Below, piece after piece: positions 1 to 17,256 of a stretch of 58,378 bases of DNA (its first letter is position 1; each line of letters begins with the position of its first letter). The notes beneath the pieces were generated by a model, which had not been told where the DNA came from, searched no databases, and saw only the letters and a list, made by a program, of their open reading frames with translations. A program made the translations under genes and the position numbers. Source of the stretch: Candidatus Tidjanibacter faecipullorum (GTDB taxonomy: Bacteria; Bacteroidota; Bacteroidia; Bacteroidales; Rikenellaceae); NCBI GenBank assembly GCA_019116245.1, contig DXCC01000027.1, positions 1 to 58,378 on the forward strand. Direction: 5' to 3'.

Positions 1-53
1 GGAACGGGAACGGGAACGGAGAACGGGAACGGGAACGGGAACGGAGAACAGGA
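1..53. repeat. Hexanucleotide tandem repeat (GGAACG-type)
   Basis: The first 53 bases are almost entirely tandem copies of GGGAAC/GGAACG, with two copies changed to GGAGAAC. A second hexamer run of the AATGCC/AATACC type follows at about 79-108. Two plus-strand frames stay open through the repeat, but no recognisable protein is encoded, and a gene tail from outside the window cannot be excluded. The remainder up to the tRNA terminator is C-rich and shows nothing else recognisable. Confidence 0.75.
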
Positions 54-279
54 ATGGAGCCCCTGCGCCCAATGCCAATGTCAATGCCAATACCAATGCT
101 GAATCACCCGCATGGGTCGCACAAGCAAACAAGACACAACGCGGCCCGGCCGAGGCACCCAGCCCCTCCCTCGCTCGCCTGCCGCCCAGCACCTGCCGCG
201 ACATCTGCACTGCAGTACACACGGCGATCAGATTCCGCCCCCGAAGGGGTCTTCCGCCATTGGCCTGTCGACAACAAAA

Positions 280-605: not shown

Positions 606-2456
606 CTATCCGACCGCAGGTTGCTCACCGGCTGCAGGCCGTTCGGAAACAAGGCGTCCGGGAACTGCAGGCCGCAGATGCTCGGCCACCACCTGGGAGA
701 TGTCGGCCACCCGTACGGAGGCATTCCGCACGATCGCCTTCTTGCACAGCGGACAAGCCGTCACGATGGTCTGCGCCCCCGTCTGTTCCAGTTCAGCCGT
801 CATGGCCGCGCCGATCCGCACCTGCTGGCCGTCGTCGATCACCGTATTGGCCAGGCTGCTGCCGCAACAAAGCGCCTCGCGCCGGTTGTGCTCCGGATCG
901 GTCAGCCTGCCCGCCATGCGGATCAGTTCGCGGGGCGGCTCGTAAATGCCGCTGCCTCGCCCCAATTCACACGGATCGTGATAGGTGAACGACTCGCCGC
1001 CGCTGTCGATGGTCAGCCGTCCCGCACGCACCAGCCGCAGGATGTATTCGGTATGATGCAGCACTTCGATACCCTGCAGGTCGTAATCCTCCCGGAAAAC
1101 CTTCAGGCAGATCGGGCACGAGGTCACCAGCGTCGTGATGCCGTGCTTGACGAAGAGTGCCTTGTTGCTCTCCATCAGCCGACGGGCCGCCTGAATCTCG
1201 CCCGACAGCTTGAGCGGCCGTCCGCAGCAGGTACCGCCGTCGCGATCGGCCCACCACACCTCCTCGCCGGCCGCCTCGAAGATCCGTTCCATGGATTTCA
1301 ACGTGGCGGGCGTCAACAGGGTCATGCAGCCGGCAAAGTAACCGACCCGTCCCTGTCCCGACGAACGGTCTATGCCCTGCAGGTAGTCGAATCGTGTCAG
1401 GGCGGGCGCATCCTTCCGCTGCTGCCGGCTGTTGAGCCGGAGTGTATTGAGTTCGATGCCCACCGGACAGCGCGCCTCGCACAGGCCGCACATCAGGCAG
1501 TTGTCCGTCACTTCGTCGGTCAACTTGCCGTAGCGTCGGTCGCGCAGGAAGTAGACCGACTGCACGTTGCGGATATTCAGATCGCGCTGCAGCTGGCAGG
1601 GATCGATGCAGATGCCGCAACGGGAGCAGGCCTGTATCTGGAAATTGTCGAAACTCTTGGGCTGCGCCTCGCTGTGGATGCGGTAACGGCGCAGGAAGAT
1701 CAGCGGCACCTCGGTGAAGATGTGCATGTACCGCGAGAAGGGCATCGCCACGAAAAAGATGCCCAACGCAAACGAATAGAGCCACCATGCCGTCTCCGTC
1801 GCCACGTCAAGCACCTCAGGACTCATCCATGCCTCAAAGAGGCTGCCCAGCGATCCGGTCAGGAAGCCGCCGTTATGCTTGCCGGCCGCGGTCAGGCTCT
1901 CCGCCAGCAGACGCAGCGGGAAGATGCACCAGAGCGCCGACAGGGCCACACGGTCAATCAGCACATGCTTCGTCGTGCGCTTCATGCCCAGGGCCCGGGA
2001 GCGCATCCGCTTGAACCAGGCCAGCGCGACGCCCGACAGCACCATGAGCAGCAGCAGGTCCATCACGAAGGCAAAGGGATTCCAGCCCCCCGTATGGTTC
2101 GCGGGATCGAAATAACGGAAGAAGACGTGGGCATGCAGGGGCGTGCCGCCGCCCAGCACGTAGGCAGCCTCAATCCACCCCACGACAATCAGCAGGAACC
2201 ATCCGAAGGCCAGGCTCATATGCATGTAGCCGAGCAGCGGATTGACCCGGAAGATCCGGCGGTGCAGCAGCGACTCGCTGATCACCTCGCCGATCGCCTT
2301 GAGTGTCGCTCCGGAGAAGATGCCGCAGCCGATGGCACGCTTGTCCCGGCCGGGCAACATCCACAGCCAGCGTCCCCACTTCCAGACGATCACCACAAAC
2401 ATGAAGATCGTCCCGACGAGGAACGGAATGACAAAATGGTCGTAATAATACATCAT
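606..2456 (-). CDS. Membrane HdrE-HdrC-HdrB fusion (DsrMK-like)
   Basis: Predicted membrane-bound iron-sulfur electron-transfer subunit, 616 aa. Residues 1-260 carry about five membrane segments (roughly 8-28, 76-100, 126-147, 165-185, 221-242) with His79 and His244 placed as in NarI/DsrM-type cytochrome b subunits, so heme b is likely. Two 4Fe-4S motifs follow (C277/280/283/287 and C320/323/326/330). Two complete cysteine-rich CCG domains, each ending in a CPxC, fill the C-terminal half as in HdrD/DsrK. It is the last gene of the five-gene Hdr-like operon, 15 bp after the small HdrC. It probably exchanges electrons between the quinone pool and the soluble Hdr subunits. The direction and partner are unknown. 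Confidence 0.85.
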   Translation of the reverse strand: MMYYYDHFVIPFLVGTIFMFVVIVWKWGRWLWMLPGRDKRAIGCGIFSGATLKAIGEVISESLLHRRIFRVNPLLGYMHMSLAFGWFLLIVVGWIEAAYVLGGGTPLHAHVFFRYFDPANHTGGWNPFAFVMDLLLLMVLSGVALAWFKRMRSRALGMKRTTKHVLIDRVALSALWCIFPLRLLAESLTAAGKHNGGFLTGSLGSLFEAWMSPEVLDVATETAWWLYSFALGIFFVAMPFSRYMHIFTEVPLIFLRRYRIHSEAQPKSFDNFQIQACSRCGICIDPCQLQRDLNIRNVQSVYFLRDRRYGKLTDEVTDNCLMCGLCEARCPVGIELNTLRLNSRQQRKDAPALTRFDYLQGIDRSSGQGRVGYFAGCMTLLTPATLKSMERIFEAAGEEVWWADRDGGTCCGRPLKLSGEIQAARRLMESNKALFVKHGITTLVTSCPICLKVFREDYDLQGIEVLHHTEYILRLVRAGRLTIDSGGESFTYHDPCELGRGSGIYEPPRELIRMAGRLTDPEHNRREALCCGSSLANTVIDDGQQVRIGAAMTAELEQTGAQTIVTACPLCKKAIVRNASVRVADISQVVAEHLRPAVPGRLVSERPAAGEQPAVG

Positions 2457-2471
2457 GGTTTTCTCCTCCCG

Positions 2472-2801
2472 TCAATAATCGCAGAGCGTTTGTCTGATTT
2501 TGAGTGCCACCGCACGCGTATTGATGCCGCGGGGGCAGACCAGCCGACACTTGCCGCAGAGCATGCACTTCTGGAGCTGTTCGTACACCTCGCGATACTC
2601 GCCGCGACGCACCAGCGTATGCATCCGGCGGAAATTGAACGCCGTGAGGTTGCCGGCCGTACAGGTAGCCGTACAACTGCCGCAGGCGATGCAGCTCCAC
2701 AACTCCGGCACCTCGCGCAGGATGCGCTCGGCCGGCACCAGATCGTTCGTGTCGAGATTGACGGCACGCGGCTGGGAAATGGAAAAACCGAACTGAGGCA
2801 T
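2472..2801 (-). CDS. Small HdrC-like 4Fe-4S protein
   Basis: A 109-aa soluble protein with two classical 4Fe-4S motifs (C37/40/43/47 and C79/82/85/89), spaced as in HdrC and the N-terminal part of GlpC or LutA-like proteins. It has no membrane segment or signal peptide. It starts 5 bp after the HdrA-like gene and ends 15 bp before the membrane fusion, so it very likely wires HdrA to the membrane subunit. It is shorter than methanogen HdrC (about 185 aa), with little beyond the ferredoxin fold. Confidence 0.88.
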   Translation of the reverse strand: MPQFGFSISQPRAVNLDTNDLVPAERILREVPELWSCIACGSCTATCTAGNLTAFNFRRMHTLVRRGEYREVYEQLQKCMLCGKCRLVCPRGINTRAVALKIRQTLCDY

Positions 2802-2806
2802 AGCGT

Positions 2807-3823
2807 TTACAGATTAAGATAGGCAGCCACCCGCTCGGCGGCGGCCATGCCCTCGTTCAGACTTTCGCCGATATTCTTGGGGGCCGTCACCGCACCGGCA
2901 TAGAACACGCCCTCCCGTTCGGAGGCCACGTTGCCGAGGAACGAATCGCGCGGCTGCATGAAACCGTTGGGGGCCACCGTCAGTCCGCCGCTGCGGGCGA
3001 ACGCACCGTTGGAAGCGCCCCCCTTCATGCCCACGATCAGCACCAGCATATCCACCGTCATGCGCAGCGGGCGGCCGATGAGCGTATCTTCGGCCTTGAT
3101 CTGCACGCGGCCGTCGATGGTCTGACTCGCCTCGGAGATGCGGCCGCGGATGAAATTGATATGGTAGTCGAGTTGCGCGCGGCGGTAAAGCTCCTCATAG
3201 CCCGGGCCGAACATACGGATATCCATATAAAAGTTGAGCACCTCGGCCGCCGGGAAAAGCTCCTTCATCTCGATCGCCTGCTTGACGCCCGTGATGCAGC
3301 ACACCTTGGAACAGTGGTGCGCCCCGACCTTCTCGTCGCGCGAACCGACGCAGTGCAGAAAGGCGATCCGGCGCGGCTCCCGGCCCTGGGCCGTCCGCAC
3401 ACACCCTTCGTTCAGCATCCGCTCGATATCGACCGTCGTGAAGACGTTGTCATAGATACCGTAGCCGTACTCCTCCTTGATGCGGGCATTGAAGACCTCA
3501 AAGCCCGAGCAGACCACCGTCGCCGCACCGTCGAGCCGCTCGCCGCCGTTCAGCACGACTCCCGTCGGTGTCACCTCCTCGACCGTCCGGCCCGTACGCA
3601 CCTCGATACCTGCCTCGGCCACCCGGCTCCGCAGGGGCTCCAGCACCTCCCCGGCCGGGGTGAAAGTCGGGAAGAGTTTGTGCCAGCCGGCAATCTTGCC
3701 GCCGAGCCGGTCTTCACGCTCCACGATGACGGGCTCCGCACCGCGGGCGCGCAGCGACAGGGCGGCCTGCATGCCGGCCACGCCGCCGCCTACGATGATG
3801 ACCCGTTTATCTCTTTTTTCCAT
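2807..3823 (-). CDS. HdrA-like flavoprotein
   Basis: A 338-aa FAD-dependent oxidoreductase of the HdrA family. The dinucleotide fold is clear (VGGGVAGMQAA at 11-21 with an acidic residue at the end of strand 2). A four-cysteine 4Fe-4S insertion follows (C158, C171, C175, C176), typical of HdrA. It lacks the N-terminal and C-terminal ferredoxin extensions of methanogen HdrA (about 650 aa), so it is the short form, as in sulfur-oxidiser sHdrA. Its place between HdrB and HdrC genes supports a role as the flavin hub of the complex. Whether it bifurcates electrons cannot be told from the sequence. Confidence 0.87.
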   Translation of the reverse strand: MEKRDKRVIIVGGGVAGMQAALSLRARGAEPVIVEREDRLGGKIAGWHKLFPTFTPAGEVLEPLRSRVAEAGIEVRTGRTVEEVTPTGVVLNGGERLDGAATVVCSGFEVFNARIKEEYGYGIYDNVFTTVDIERMLNEGCVRTAQGREPRRIAFLHCVGSRDEKVGAHHCSKVCCITGVKQAIEMKELFPAAEVLNFYMDIRMFGPGYEELYRRAQLDYHINFIRGRISEASQTIDGRVQIKAEDTLIGRPLRMTVDMLVLIVGMKGGASNGAFARSGGLTVAPNGFMQPRDSFLGNVASEREGVFYAGAVTAPKNIGESLNEGMAAAERVAAYLNL

Positions 3824-3850
3824 AGTTTGTTCTCTTTTCGAATGCGGGAG

Positions 3851-4912
3851 CTACTCCACCCCCATATTGACAGCCGCCGGTTCGGGCCGGCCGATATAAC
3901 GTCCGTTGGGCATCAGATACTTGGCTGCCGGATCGTACTCCACGCCCAGCTTGTCGAGCAGCGGTTCTACATCGACCTGGTGCATCTGCAGCCCCAGATC
4001 CCAGGGATCGTACCCCAGCACCAGTCCGGCCAGCTCCTCGTAGGTCAGCACGGGGATGCCCTTGCCGTCCTGTCCGTAGGTCGTGCCCTCGATCTCGGCA
4101 ATCGTATATTGCCACTTGTCCAGGAACATGCCGCAGCCCGGACAGTTGGTCAGGATAAAATCGGGCTTGTAGAGGGCCATCGACTCCAGCTTCTTCTGCG
4201 AATTGGCAATCGAATAGCCGCGGTTGGCCTGCACCAGGTAGTTGCGGAAACCGAATCCGCAGCAATGCCGCCGCTCCGGATAATCGACCACCTGACCGCC
4301 CCAGGCCTCGATCATGCCTGCCAGCACATAGGGAAACTCCACCCCGCCGATGCCCTCCTTGGGGAAGATCTTGGCGTAGTGGCAGCCGATGTGCTCCACG
4401 CCGCGCAACGGTTCGCCCGTACGGTGATCGACGAGCAGATGCTTGGCCCGCTGACGAATGGCGTCGCGGTGGTGGAAGATGATGTCCGACGTGTGGGCGA
4501 GGTTCCTGGGTTTGTAGAACTCGCGGCCCGTCGCCTTGTAGAGGTGTTCGCGGATACGCTCCTCCACCTCGGGAAACTCGCGCCAGGTCTCCAGCACCTC
4601 GGTGTAGATGCCGAACGAGGTGATGCACGACACGGCCGCATTCTCGTAACCGGCCTCCTTCATGAGGGCAAACTGCCGCGCCACAACGGTCATGATCGTA
4701 TCGTGCAGCACGACGTCGGAGTGGTATCCGATGCCCGTACACGAGGTGTGGGCCGGGTCGTCGTACAGGTTGCGTCCCAGCTCCTCGCGCAGAATCCGCA
4801 CGAAGGCCCTTTCCGATCCGGGGAAAAAGTTCTGCCGGATGCAGCTGCGCAGATAGTAGTAGTTGTCGTCGGCAACCTCTTTCTGATATTCCTGCCAGGT
4901 ATTGCGTTTCAT
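3851..4912 (-). CDS. HdrB-like protein with CCG domain
   Basis: A 353-aa cysteine-rich protein of the heterodisulfide reductase B family. The C-terminal CCG motif is intact: C177, C217-C218, then C257xxC260, with spacings that fit the CX(31-39)CCX(35-39)CxxC pattern that binds a noncubane 4Fe-4S cluster in HdrB. The N-terminal half has scattered cysteines (24, 58, 96) in degenerate form. ATG at 4912 is chosen because the family N-terminus begins there; the upstream extension is arginine-rich and reads like noise. It starts 31 bp after the first HdrC-like gene. Substrate unknown. Confidence 0.85.
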   Translation of the reverse strand: MKRNTWQEYQKEVADDNYYYLRSCIRQNFFPGSERAFVRILREELGRNLYDDPAHTSCTGIGYHSDVVLHDTIMTVVARQFALMKEAGYENAAVSCITSFGIYTEVLETWREFPEVEERIREHLYKATGREFYKPRNLAHTSDIIFHHRDAIRQRAKHLLVDHRTGEPLRGVEHIGCHYAKIFPKEGIGGVEFPYVLAGMIEAWGGQVVDYPERRHCCGFGFRNYLVQANRGYSIANSQKKLESMALYKPDFILTNCPGCGMFLDKWQYTIAEIEGTTYGQDGKGIPVLTYEELAGLVLGYDPWDLGLQMHQVDVEPLLDKLGVEYDPAAKYLMPNGRYIGRPEPAAVNMGVE

Positions 4913-4943
4913 ACTTGTTGCTTGTCTGGTGAAGCGGCCGCCG

Positions 4944-5639
4944 TCAATGGTGCGTGTCGCTGTTGGTCGTATAGGTATACATGACGTACTCGTCATTGGC
5001 ACCGTCGAAACCCAGTTCGCGGGCCTTGCGGTCGGAGCACTCCTCAATCCGGTCGAAGAAGGCCGCCCCGCCCGTCTCCTCGAAGATGCTGCGGATCTCG
5101 GCCATCGCATCGTCACTAATGCGGCGCAGCGCACCGGGCCCCTCCTCCATGTAGTGGGGATTGAACCGGCCGTAGACCTCCTTGTCGTTGTCGTAGATCC
5201 AGCGCCACACGGGCCCCTGCTCCTGGTGCAGATCGGGATTGATGAGGCGCGGCGTGAGGCAGTAGCCCGTGCGCAGGATGTTGTCGCCCACGGTCCGCTT
5301 CAGGGCAATCTGCTGCCGCCCCTTCTCGGACTCCACGAAGAAGCCCAGCTTCTGCGACAGCGTGCGCAGCGCCTGGATCACATACCCCGGCGTATTGCCG
5401 CGCGGGCAACGCGGACGGCACGACATGCACTCACCGCAGTACCAGATCGTTTCGCTGCGGAGCAGGCGTTCGATGGCGTCGTCGTCCTGCGTCTGCACGG
5501 TGCTGACGATCTGCCGCGGATCGTAATTATAGAATTCGGCTGCCGGACAGACGGCCGTGCAGACACCGCAGTTCATGCACGCCTTCATGCCTTCGCGCAT
5601 GCGAATGTCCTCCATCAGCATATCGTAATATTTTCCCAT
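4944..5639 (-). CDS. HdrC-like dicluster ferredoxin, first gene of operon
   Basis: A 231-aa soluble protein with two 4Fe-4S motifs at C21/24/27/31 and C68/71/74/78, followed by a helical C-terminal part of about 140 residues without further cysteine motifs. The overall plan matches the longer HdrC proteins that pair with HdrB. ATG at 5639 is preferred over an upstream ATG at 5678 because the family begins just before the first cluster motif. It is the first gene of the Hdr-like operon, behind a consensus -7 box. Confidence 0.85.
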   Translation of the reverse strand: MGKYYDMLMEDIRMREGMKACMNCGVCTAVCPAAEFYNYDPRQIVSTVQTQDDDAIERLLRSETIWYCGECMSCRPRCPRGNTPGYVIQALRTLSQKLGFFVESEKGRQQIALKRTVGDNILRTGYCLTPRLINPDLHQEQGPVWRWIYDNDKEVYGRFNPHYMEEGPGALRRISDDAMAEIRSIFEETGGAAFFDRIEECSDRKARELGFDGANDEYVMYTYTTNSDTHH

Positions 5640-5691
5640 CTCGTTTTCAGCAAAAAAACGGCCTGCCGAAACAGGCATAAAACAGACGAAA

Positions 5692-5699
5692 CAAAATTA
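5692..5699 (-). promoter_or_regulatory. -7 box of the Hdr-like operon
   Basis: The minus strand reads TAATTTTG, matching TAnnTTTG, 53 bp before the start of the first gene. A small hairpin (GCCTG/CAGGC, 5661-5676) lies in the leader. Confidence 0.55.
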
Positions 5700-16485: not shown

Positions 16486-17256
16486 ATGGCTGTTGTAAAA
16501 ACAAAAATCGCGGCGGTATCCTATCTGAATACCGTGCCGTTCGTTTACGGCATCACCCACGCGGATAAGTTGGACGCGGAGCTGCTGCTTGCGCCCCCGG
16601 CGCAGTGCGCCCGCAACTACATGGACCGGAAAGCCGACATCGCGCTGGTTCCGGTCGGTTCGCTCCCGATGCTCGAAGATGCCGAAATCATAACGAACTA
16701 CTGCATCGGCGCGGAGAAGAGCGTCCGCACCGTAACCGTCATGAGCAATGCCCCGATCGCCGAGACACGGCGGCTGTGGCTCGATTCCCACTCCATGACT
16801 TCGGCCCTGCTGGTCAAGATCCTGGCAGCCGAACTGTGGCACATCAATCCCGAATGGAAAGAACTGACCGACTATTCGGTAGTCAGTCATCCCGAGGAGG
16901 GCGACGCCTTTCTGCTCATCGGCGACAAGGTCTTTGACAACGAAGGACATTTCGCCTATACGTACGATCTGGCCGACTGCTGGCGCGAGTTGACCGGCAA
17001 GCCGTTCGTATTTGCCGTATGGGTGGCACGCAAAGGGATCGCTCCGGAGTTGATCGACGACCTCGAGGCTTCGCTTGAACTGGGCGTGGAACGCATCTGG
17101 GAGGCAGTCAACGAGAGCGAACACCGCAGCAAGGATTACGCCTACACCTACCTCACCGAAAACATCGACTTCCTGTTCGACTACCAGAAAAGGCAGGCGC
17201 TCGAACTCTACTGGGACAAAGGCCGCAAGTTCGTACCGCGGGCCAATCCCGGCTGA
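16486..17256 (+). CDS. mqnA: Chorismate dehydratase MqnA (futalosine pathway)
   Basis: A 256-aa protein of the MqnA/MqnD solute-binding fold. It begins with the signature AAVSYLNTVPFVYG, followed by the family pattern of small-molecule enclosure residues (ADIALVPVGSLP). MqnA removes water from chorismate to give 3-enolpyruvylbenzoate, the first step of futalosine-dependent menaquinone synthesis. ATG at 16486 is in frame; an ATG 7 bp earlier is out of frame. Its presence says that the organism makes menaquinone by this route, which gives the membrane Hdr-like complex a likely quinone partner. Confidence 0.9.
   Translation: MAVVKTKIAAVSYLNTVPFVYGITHADKLDAELLLAPPAQCARNYMDRKADIALVPVGSLPMLEDAEIITNYCIGAEKSVRTVTVMSNAPIAETRRLWLDSHSMTSALLVKILAAELWHINPEWKELTDYSVVSHPEEGDAFLLIGDKVFDNEGHFAYTYDLADCWRELTGKPFVFAVWVARKGIAPELIDDLEASLELGVERIWEAVNESEHRSKDYAYTYLTENIDFLFDYQKRQALELYWDKGRKFVPRANPG

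Follow-up and report, generated by a model that had tools for sequence, protein, structure and literature searches.

A conserved heterodisulfide reductase-like operon with an EtfD-like membrane subunit in Bacteroidales

Heterodisulfide reductase (Hdr) proteins and their relatives are known from methanogens (HdrABC and HdrDE), from the sulfur-oxidation sHdr system, whose gene order we take to be sHdrC1-B1-A-hyp-C2-B2, and from EtfD-type membrane proteins, among which EMO of Geobacter is presumably a further close system. The sHdr genes are reported to be inevitably associated with LbpA (PMC6067878). EtfD, the electron transfer flavoprotein (ETF):menaquinone oxidoreductase of mycobacteria, has five transmembrane (TM) helices; its heme b is bound by His78 and His241, and the protein also contains two CCG domains and shows a menaquinone-like density (PMC13083937). 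In Syntrophomonas wolfei, an ETF:quinone oxidoreductase role has been assigned to a CCG (DUF224) membrane protein (PMC3582634). In this study, we describe a five-gene Hdr-like operon on a stretch of 58,378 nucleotides from Candidatus Tidjanibacter faecipullorum (contig DXCC01000027.1 of assembly GCA_019116245.1), which is referred to as the window. The operon is real and conserved, and its last gene encodes a membrane subunit which, as modelled, is EtfD-like.

Gene content and conservation of the operon

Reading of the open reading frames (ORFs) places five genes on the minus strand at window positions 606-5639, in the order C1-B1-A-C2-[membrane+C+B2 fusion]. The gaps between successive ORFs are 31, 27, 5 and 15 bp, in agreement with the compact five-gene Hdr-like operon with gaps of 5-31 bp that an earlier note on this DNA (the original prediction) had described.

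4944..5639, minus strand: C1, HdrC-like dicluster ferredoxin subunit of 231 amino acids; eight cluster cysteines, invariant in 22/22
3851..4912, minus strand: B1, HdrB-like subunit of 353 amino acids; complete CCG site C177/C217/C218/C257/C260 and degenerate first site C24/C58/C96
2807..3823, minus strand: A, short HdrA of 338 amino acids; flavin adenine dinucleotide (FAD) fold and four invariant cysteines (C158, C171, C175, C176)
2472..2801, minus strand: C2, small dicluster ferredoxin subunit of 109 amino acids; eight invariant cysteines
606..2456, minus strand: membrane fusion of 616 residues; dicluster C277-C330, CCG1 C377-C450, CCG2 C496-C571

B1 was found in 24 of 60 relatives (the genome of the window included) and in 46 of 129 genomes spread over the order Bacteroidales, which corresponds to 43 of 119 genera. 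A adjoins B1 in 44 of these 46 genomes, and the other two, G382 and G415, showed only a pair lacking A. Among 296 genomes of the phylum, a sample in which only three of the rows shown belong to the order, 79 had a match, and the best one besides the window itself was ~30% identical. Among named genomes, at least 592 loci were detected. The best 80 of these come from Alistipes, Tidjanibacter, other Rikenellaceae, Butyricimonas, Millionella and records named merely Bacteroidales, Bacteroidetes or Bacteroidota, and the closest named loci among the matches listed are Rikenellaceae/Tidjanibacter records. By a script filter, the B2 part of the fusion is membrane-fused and full-length in 71 of the 80.

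For comparison of gene order, 181 Bacteroidota loci were used, a set in which some records occur twice (95 distinct B1 proteins among the first 103 loci). The full C1-B1-A-C2-fusion order is present in 155 of them; the other 26 comprise 2 permuted loci, 3 with B1-A alone, 11 cut by contig ends and 10 with C1-B1 without A. Since the order recurs in 155/181 loci, the operon is not a product of chance, and because no neighbouring gene family occurs in more than 5 of 27 B1 clusters, the five genes are the unit. The commonest neighbour families of the full operon reflect local synteny, as with thyA/folA-like genes (named by eye). Thus, the genes stand together in relatives rather than scattered, and a conserved Hdr-like operon with a membrane subunit is confirmed.

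The permuted order, C1-C2-fusion-B1-A, was seen in one genus (L186 and L239, from G407 and G501). Separation of B1-A from C2 and the fusion was also seen in one genus (L050, L199 and L242, from G036, G441 and G531), and C2 and the fusion were found elsewhere in the genome in G036 and G441, the two of the three that were searched. In G036, B1-A comes after a gene which, by eye, is iron-alcohol-dehydrogenase-like.

No published description of the operon, and no characterised whole homologue with a known substrate, was found in a literature search with subscription papers mostly outside its coverage, with one possible exception. A complete heterodisulfide reductase gene set has been reported in Black Sea strains including Bacteroidota, with relief of sulfide toxicity as its suggested role (PMC11129491), and it is possible that this gene set is the same as the operon described here. 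One of the loci, L161, comes from the Bacteroidales record BS750m-G5.

Cluster ligands and the membrane subunit

C1 matches Fer4_8 (Pfam) and HdrC (NCBIfam, 89 bits), B1 has one CCG domain (Pfam) and matches HdrB (NCBIfam, 136.7 bits), A matches HdrA2 (255 bits), and C2 matches Fer4 and was grouped with dicluster ferredoxins. Since every NCBIfam Hdr-family score is far under the curated cut-off, these proteins are Hdr relatives rather than recognised family members. None of the alignments shows any change in their cluster cysteines (C1 22/22, B1 23/23, A 22/22, C2 21/21 and fusion 21/21), and the same holds for larger alignments of 35 fusions and 26 B1 proteins. The B1 model, with a predicted local distance difference test score (pLDDT) of 82 and active-site loops partly <50, matches HdrB (Foldseek E 2e-17). 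Aligned to 5odc_B, the second site of B1 is complete, whereas the first keeps C24, C58 and C96 and has lost two of five cysteines, at the positions of C41 and of C81, the bridging one. The cysteine pattern of Hdr noncubane clusters, whose spacing we take to be CX~31-39CCX~35-36CXXC, is present in both sites of the fusion and in site 2 of B1, where the spacing is slightly longer (CX39CCX38CXXC), and absent from site 1 of B1.

With methanogen HdrABC the operon shares the HdrB fold of B1, the HdrC-like C1 and, in A, the HdrA core with its cluster cysteines (217 bits), but A has none of the extra domains of longer HdrA proteins, and a membrane module is added. The resemblance to sHdr stated in the original prediction holds for one half of the operon. 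The C1-B1-A start is the same, and A is a short single-domain HdrA that gives a full-length match to the 349-residue sHdrA 6tjr in one stretch (residues 6-330, 205 bits); the second half, however, consists of C2 and the membrane fusion in place of a separate soluble C2-B2 pair and is without sHdr counterpart, and for this reason the operon is not a standard sHdr. That A oxidises NADH directly is unlikely, because a cluster-binding stretch replaces the second Rossmann motif, as judged by eye and from general knowledge.

The fusion has Pfam matches to Fer4_8 and to two CCG domains, and five hydrophobic regions at about residues 7-34, 74-105, 130-148, 170-188 and 222-247. No NarI Pfam match was found in it at E 1e-3. 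Of the NarI/DsrM-like membrane domain predicted earlier, the membrane subunit stands, but its type is EtfD-like instead. For a model built from 35 sequences (pLDDT 90), the nearest solved structure, by far, is EtfD of Mycobacterium smegmatis (PDB 9ojn; Foldseek E 5e-23, TMq 0.69, root-mean-square deviation (rmsd) 7.1, 18% identity, 743 columns with gaps). EtfD was also the sole match in a single-sequence search of PDB (residues 260-577, 78.8 bits), and a profile search additionally gave HdrB chains and NuoI. The two proteins share the domain order TM-dicluster-CCG-CCG, and the EtfD/EMO-type layout of five TM helices, heme-ligand histidines, a dicluster and two CCG domains in one chain is predicted for the fusion from its sequence and model. 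Two invariant histidines lie at or near the places of the heme ligands.

2220..2222, minus strand: codon of fusion H79, opposite EtfD heme ligand H78 in a stretch of -4.4 bits, which is not significant alone and makes the pairing a lead only; invariant in 35/35
1722..1724, minus strand: codon of fusion H245, candidate counterpart of EtfD heme ligand H241 with no direct alignment; invariant in 35/35

The CCG sites set the fusion apart from its mycobacterial relative. EtfD has lost one CCG cysteine (Thr539) and its other cluster is capped by His583, which its authors read as non-catalytic (PMC13083937). The fusion residues aligned with Thr539 and His583, in a significant stretch, are C411 and I449, both invariant in 35/35, and the two sites (CX32CCX35CXXC and CX33CCX36CXXC) therefore keep the Hdr-type set, with all five cysteines in each. 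Methanogen HdrDE, compared here only via the EtfD paper (PMC13083937), shares the membrane cytochrome and the two CCG sites of HdrD, but the fusion is one chain and is accompanied by C1-B1-A-C2.

Menaquinone, direction and electron partner

From gene content, gene order, conserved ligands, predicted folds and the presence of menaquinone genes, we infer, as a reading that we hold on balance to be probable, that the five products would assemble into one membrane-anchored Hdr-like complex which would link a cytoplasmic redox couple to menaquinone, reducing menaquinone and having a thiol/disulfide or persulfide partner. The most likely entry point of electrons would be either the flavin/4Fe-4S subunit A or the noncubane site of B1, from where they would flow via C1, C2 and the fusion's dicluster to heme b and reduce menaquinone. 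The cytoplasmic partner would most likely be a thiol/disulfide or persulfide couple, because the two CCG sites of the fusion and one site of B1 keep complete Hdr-type cysteines. As to direction, we lean towards menaquinone reduction in the window organism, where the complex would feed fumarate reduction.

The quinone link put forward in the original prediction is plausible because of the EtfD fold, the invariant histidines and the menaquinone markers (menA or PF02621) in 45 of 46 B1-bearing genomes, that of the window among them, or 42 of 46 when menA matches below the cut-off are ignored. In the genome of the window (1.86 Mb, 99.75% complete), PF02621 matched twice, once within the window itself, and menA not at all; by these markers the organism can probably make menaquinone.

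16504..17223, plus strand: PF02621 protein (menaquinone, futalosine route), on the same contig outside the operon, in support of quinone availability

The same genome has two PF03116 (Nqr/Rnf) matches, one Sdh/Frd-type b558 cytochrome and two ETF matches, and gave no CydA match. Since the Nqr/Rnf, b558 and futalosine matches are markers of quinone-based electron transport with fumarate, the earlier view that quinone use would be surprising in a fermentative organism is not supported.

Several observations weigh against a menaquinone-reducing complex. By sequence, the membrane part of the fusion does not match EtfD significantly, and the rmsd of the structural match is high. The co-occurrence with menaquinone markers does not discriminate, because a marker is likewise present in 82 of the 83 genomes that lack B1. 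No sulfur gene recurs near the full operon, as judged by neighbourhood counts and the loci compared. One carrier, G036, has no menaquinone marker and keeps the membrane subunit nevertheless, which counts slightly. This genome had been considered as a natural experiment in quinone loss, its membrane subunit being seemingly gone, and was dropped as such once the C2-membrane module was found elsewhere in it. Finally, five carriers (G036, G407, G435, G441 and G443) have neither the tested Frd cytochrome nor CydA, so the complex cannot feed those acceptors there.

The same five carriers leave room for the complex itself oxidising menaquinol. In such a reverse direction, the complex would be a respiratory electron sink that uses menaquinol to reduce a polysulfide, persulfide or disulfide at its Hdr-type sites, in the way that methanogen HdrDE works with methanophenazine. 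Four of the five do have a menaquinone marker (that of G443 is below the menA cut-off), and the full Hdr-type cysteines of both fusion CCG sites, without the substitutions of EtfD, would suit such chemistry. However, Frd and CydA are also both lacking in G038, G379 and G410, three of the five B1-less genomes without Frd, and in G382 with its A-less pair. Frd is lacking in 8/46 B1-bearing genomes (G382 included) versus 5/83 without B1 (p 0.06, for genomes that are not independent), the search for quinol oxidases and reductases covered CydA, in 20 chosen genomes, and the Frd cytochrome, and no substrate gene is conserved with the operon. Overall, we regard the reverse direction as rather doubtful.

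Co-occurrence with B1 in the 129 genomes pointed to no firm partner among Nqr/Rnf, ETF and Frd absence (p 0.54 for lack of Nqr/Rnf and p 0.71 for lack of ETF). Futalosine matches are commoner with B1 (29/46 versus 29/83, p 0.003) and strong menA matches are rarer (15/46 versus 44/83, p 0.03), with five features tested and no correction for this or for relatedness; this skew likely comes from lineage effects.

It is tempting, if only as a tentative proposal, to see in the operon an undescribed respiratory complex, present in about one third of the Bacteroidales genera sampled, which would combine HdrABC and HdrDE in a bacterial hybrid and in which menaquinol would reduce a disulfide or persulfide, be it organic or inorganic, or the reaction would run the opposite way. 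If the proposed quinone-linked complex is real, many Bacteroidales, including gut Alistipes, would have an uncharacterised menaquinone-linked enzyme which metabolic maps miss or alternatively label 'heterodisulfide reductase'; to our knowledge, Bacteroidales have no coenzyme M or coenzyme B. It would give this dominant group of gut bacteria an extra entry or exit point in its anaerobic electron transport chain and allow a clear test of whether bacterial Hdr-type noncubane clusters act on disulfides. If menaquinol and a disulfide are indeed the couple, gut Bacteroidota would gain a thiol-disulfide electron sink or source in that chain.

That the operon is a Bacteroidales version of the sulfur-oxidation sHdr, oxidising sulfane sulfur or relieving sulfide stress as suggested for the Black Sea Bacteroidota (PMC11129491), seems improbable. 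The C1-B1-A order, the short sHdrA-like A and the Black Sea gene set fit it, as does the occurrence of a paralogous C1-B1 pair in sulfur contexts at some loci, but the second half is a membrane fusion rather than a soluble C2-B2 pair. As to the LbpA association considered inevitable for sHdr genes (PMC6067878), a lipoyl-protein regular expression, run without positive control, gave 0 matches in the ORFs of the 155 full-operon loci (101 of which have at least 3 kb on both sides) and the first 20 kb of the window. On a set of 250 sequences it gave 0 strict matches and 1 loose, apparently spurious one. A single TusA-like ORF (L048) was seen near the 155 operons.

The ten paralogous pairs without A (L179, L188, L208, L209, L210, L211, L212, L213, L216 and L221) fall into almost a single clade (a quick tree gives two changes) and have the same B1 cysteine pattern. 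Within 6 kb of them, Nitro_FeMo-Co-like proteins, ferredoxin-MinD ATPases, Mrp ATPases and a DUF134-like gene (named by eye) each occur at 5/10, and at least one of these four families is near 7/10 pairs, versus 0 or 1 of 155 full operons per family. Family assignments were confirmed for examples. In these neighbours the pairs are similar to the orange-protein (ORP) operons of Desulfovibrio (PMC6345978). Further neighbours at single loci are TusA, a YeeE-type transporter and rhodanese for L208, and OsmC and a Cys/Met PLP enzyme for L211. Such contexts hint, without proving it, that C1-B1 is a portable redox module linked to sulfur.

A role of the fusion as an ETF:menaquinone oxidoreductase of the EtfD/EMO type, with the other four genes accessory, is the least likely of these possibilities and a slim one, for although its fold and domain order are those of EtfD, the Syntrophomonas wolfei protein has such an assigned role (PMC3582634) and ETF genes occur in 121 of 129 genomes, no ETF (PF01012) match was found in the operon carriers G359 and G449, so ETF is not required as electron source, no ETF gene recurs beside the operon, the fusion is encoded with C1-B1-A-C2 and its cysteine sites differ from those of EtfD; the proposed complex is not a simple ETF dehydrogenase.

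Upstream region and contig edge

The original prediction gave the operon its own promoter. A single TAnnTTTG box, presumably the Bacteroidetes -7 element, lies upstream of C1, and the same box occurs 32 times in the window versus 9.7 expected; no sigma-70-type promoter was found upstream of C1. What stands of that promoter is one candidate motif.

5692..5699, minus strand: candidate Bacteroidetes -7 promoter box TAATTTTG, motif only

Between this box and the C1 start, at 5661-5676 on the minus strand, lies a terminator-like hairpin with a T-run, a possible leader attenuator; terminator-like hairpins in the region are at chance level (6 versus 5.6 expected). An alternative ATG of C1 at 5678 is possible and would give 244 amino acids. 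In relatives, C1 is 230-239 amino acids long in 19 of 21, and 219 and 208 in the remaining two, with starts called by a script favouring those close to the window's own. At the contig edge, in window positions 1-60, short GTTCCC-like repeats were seen by eye.

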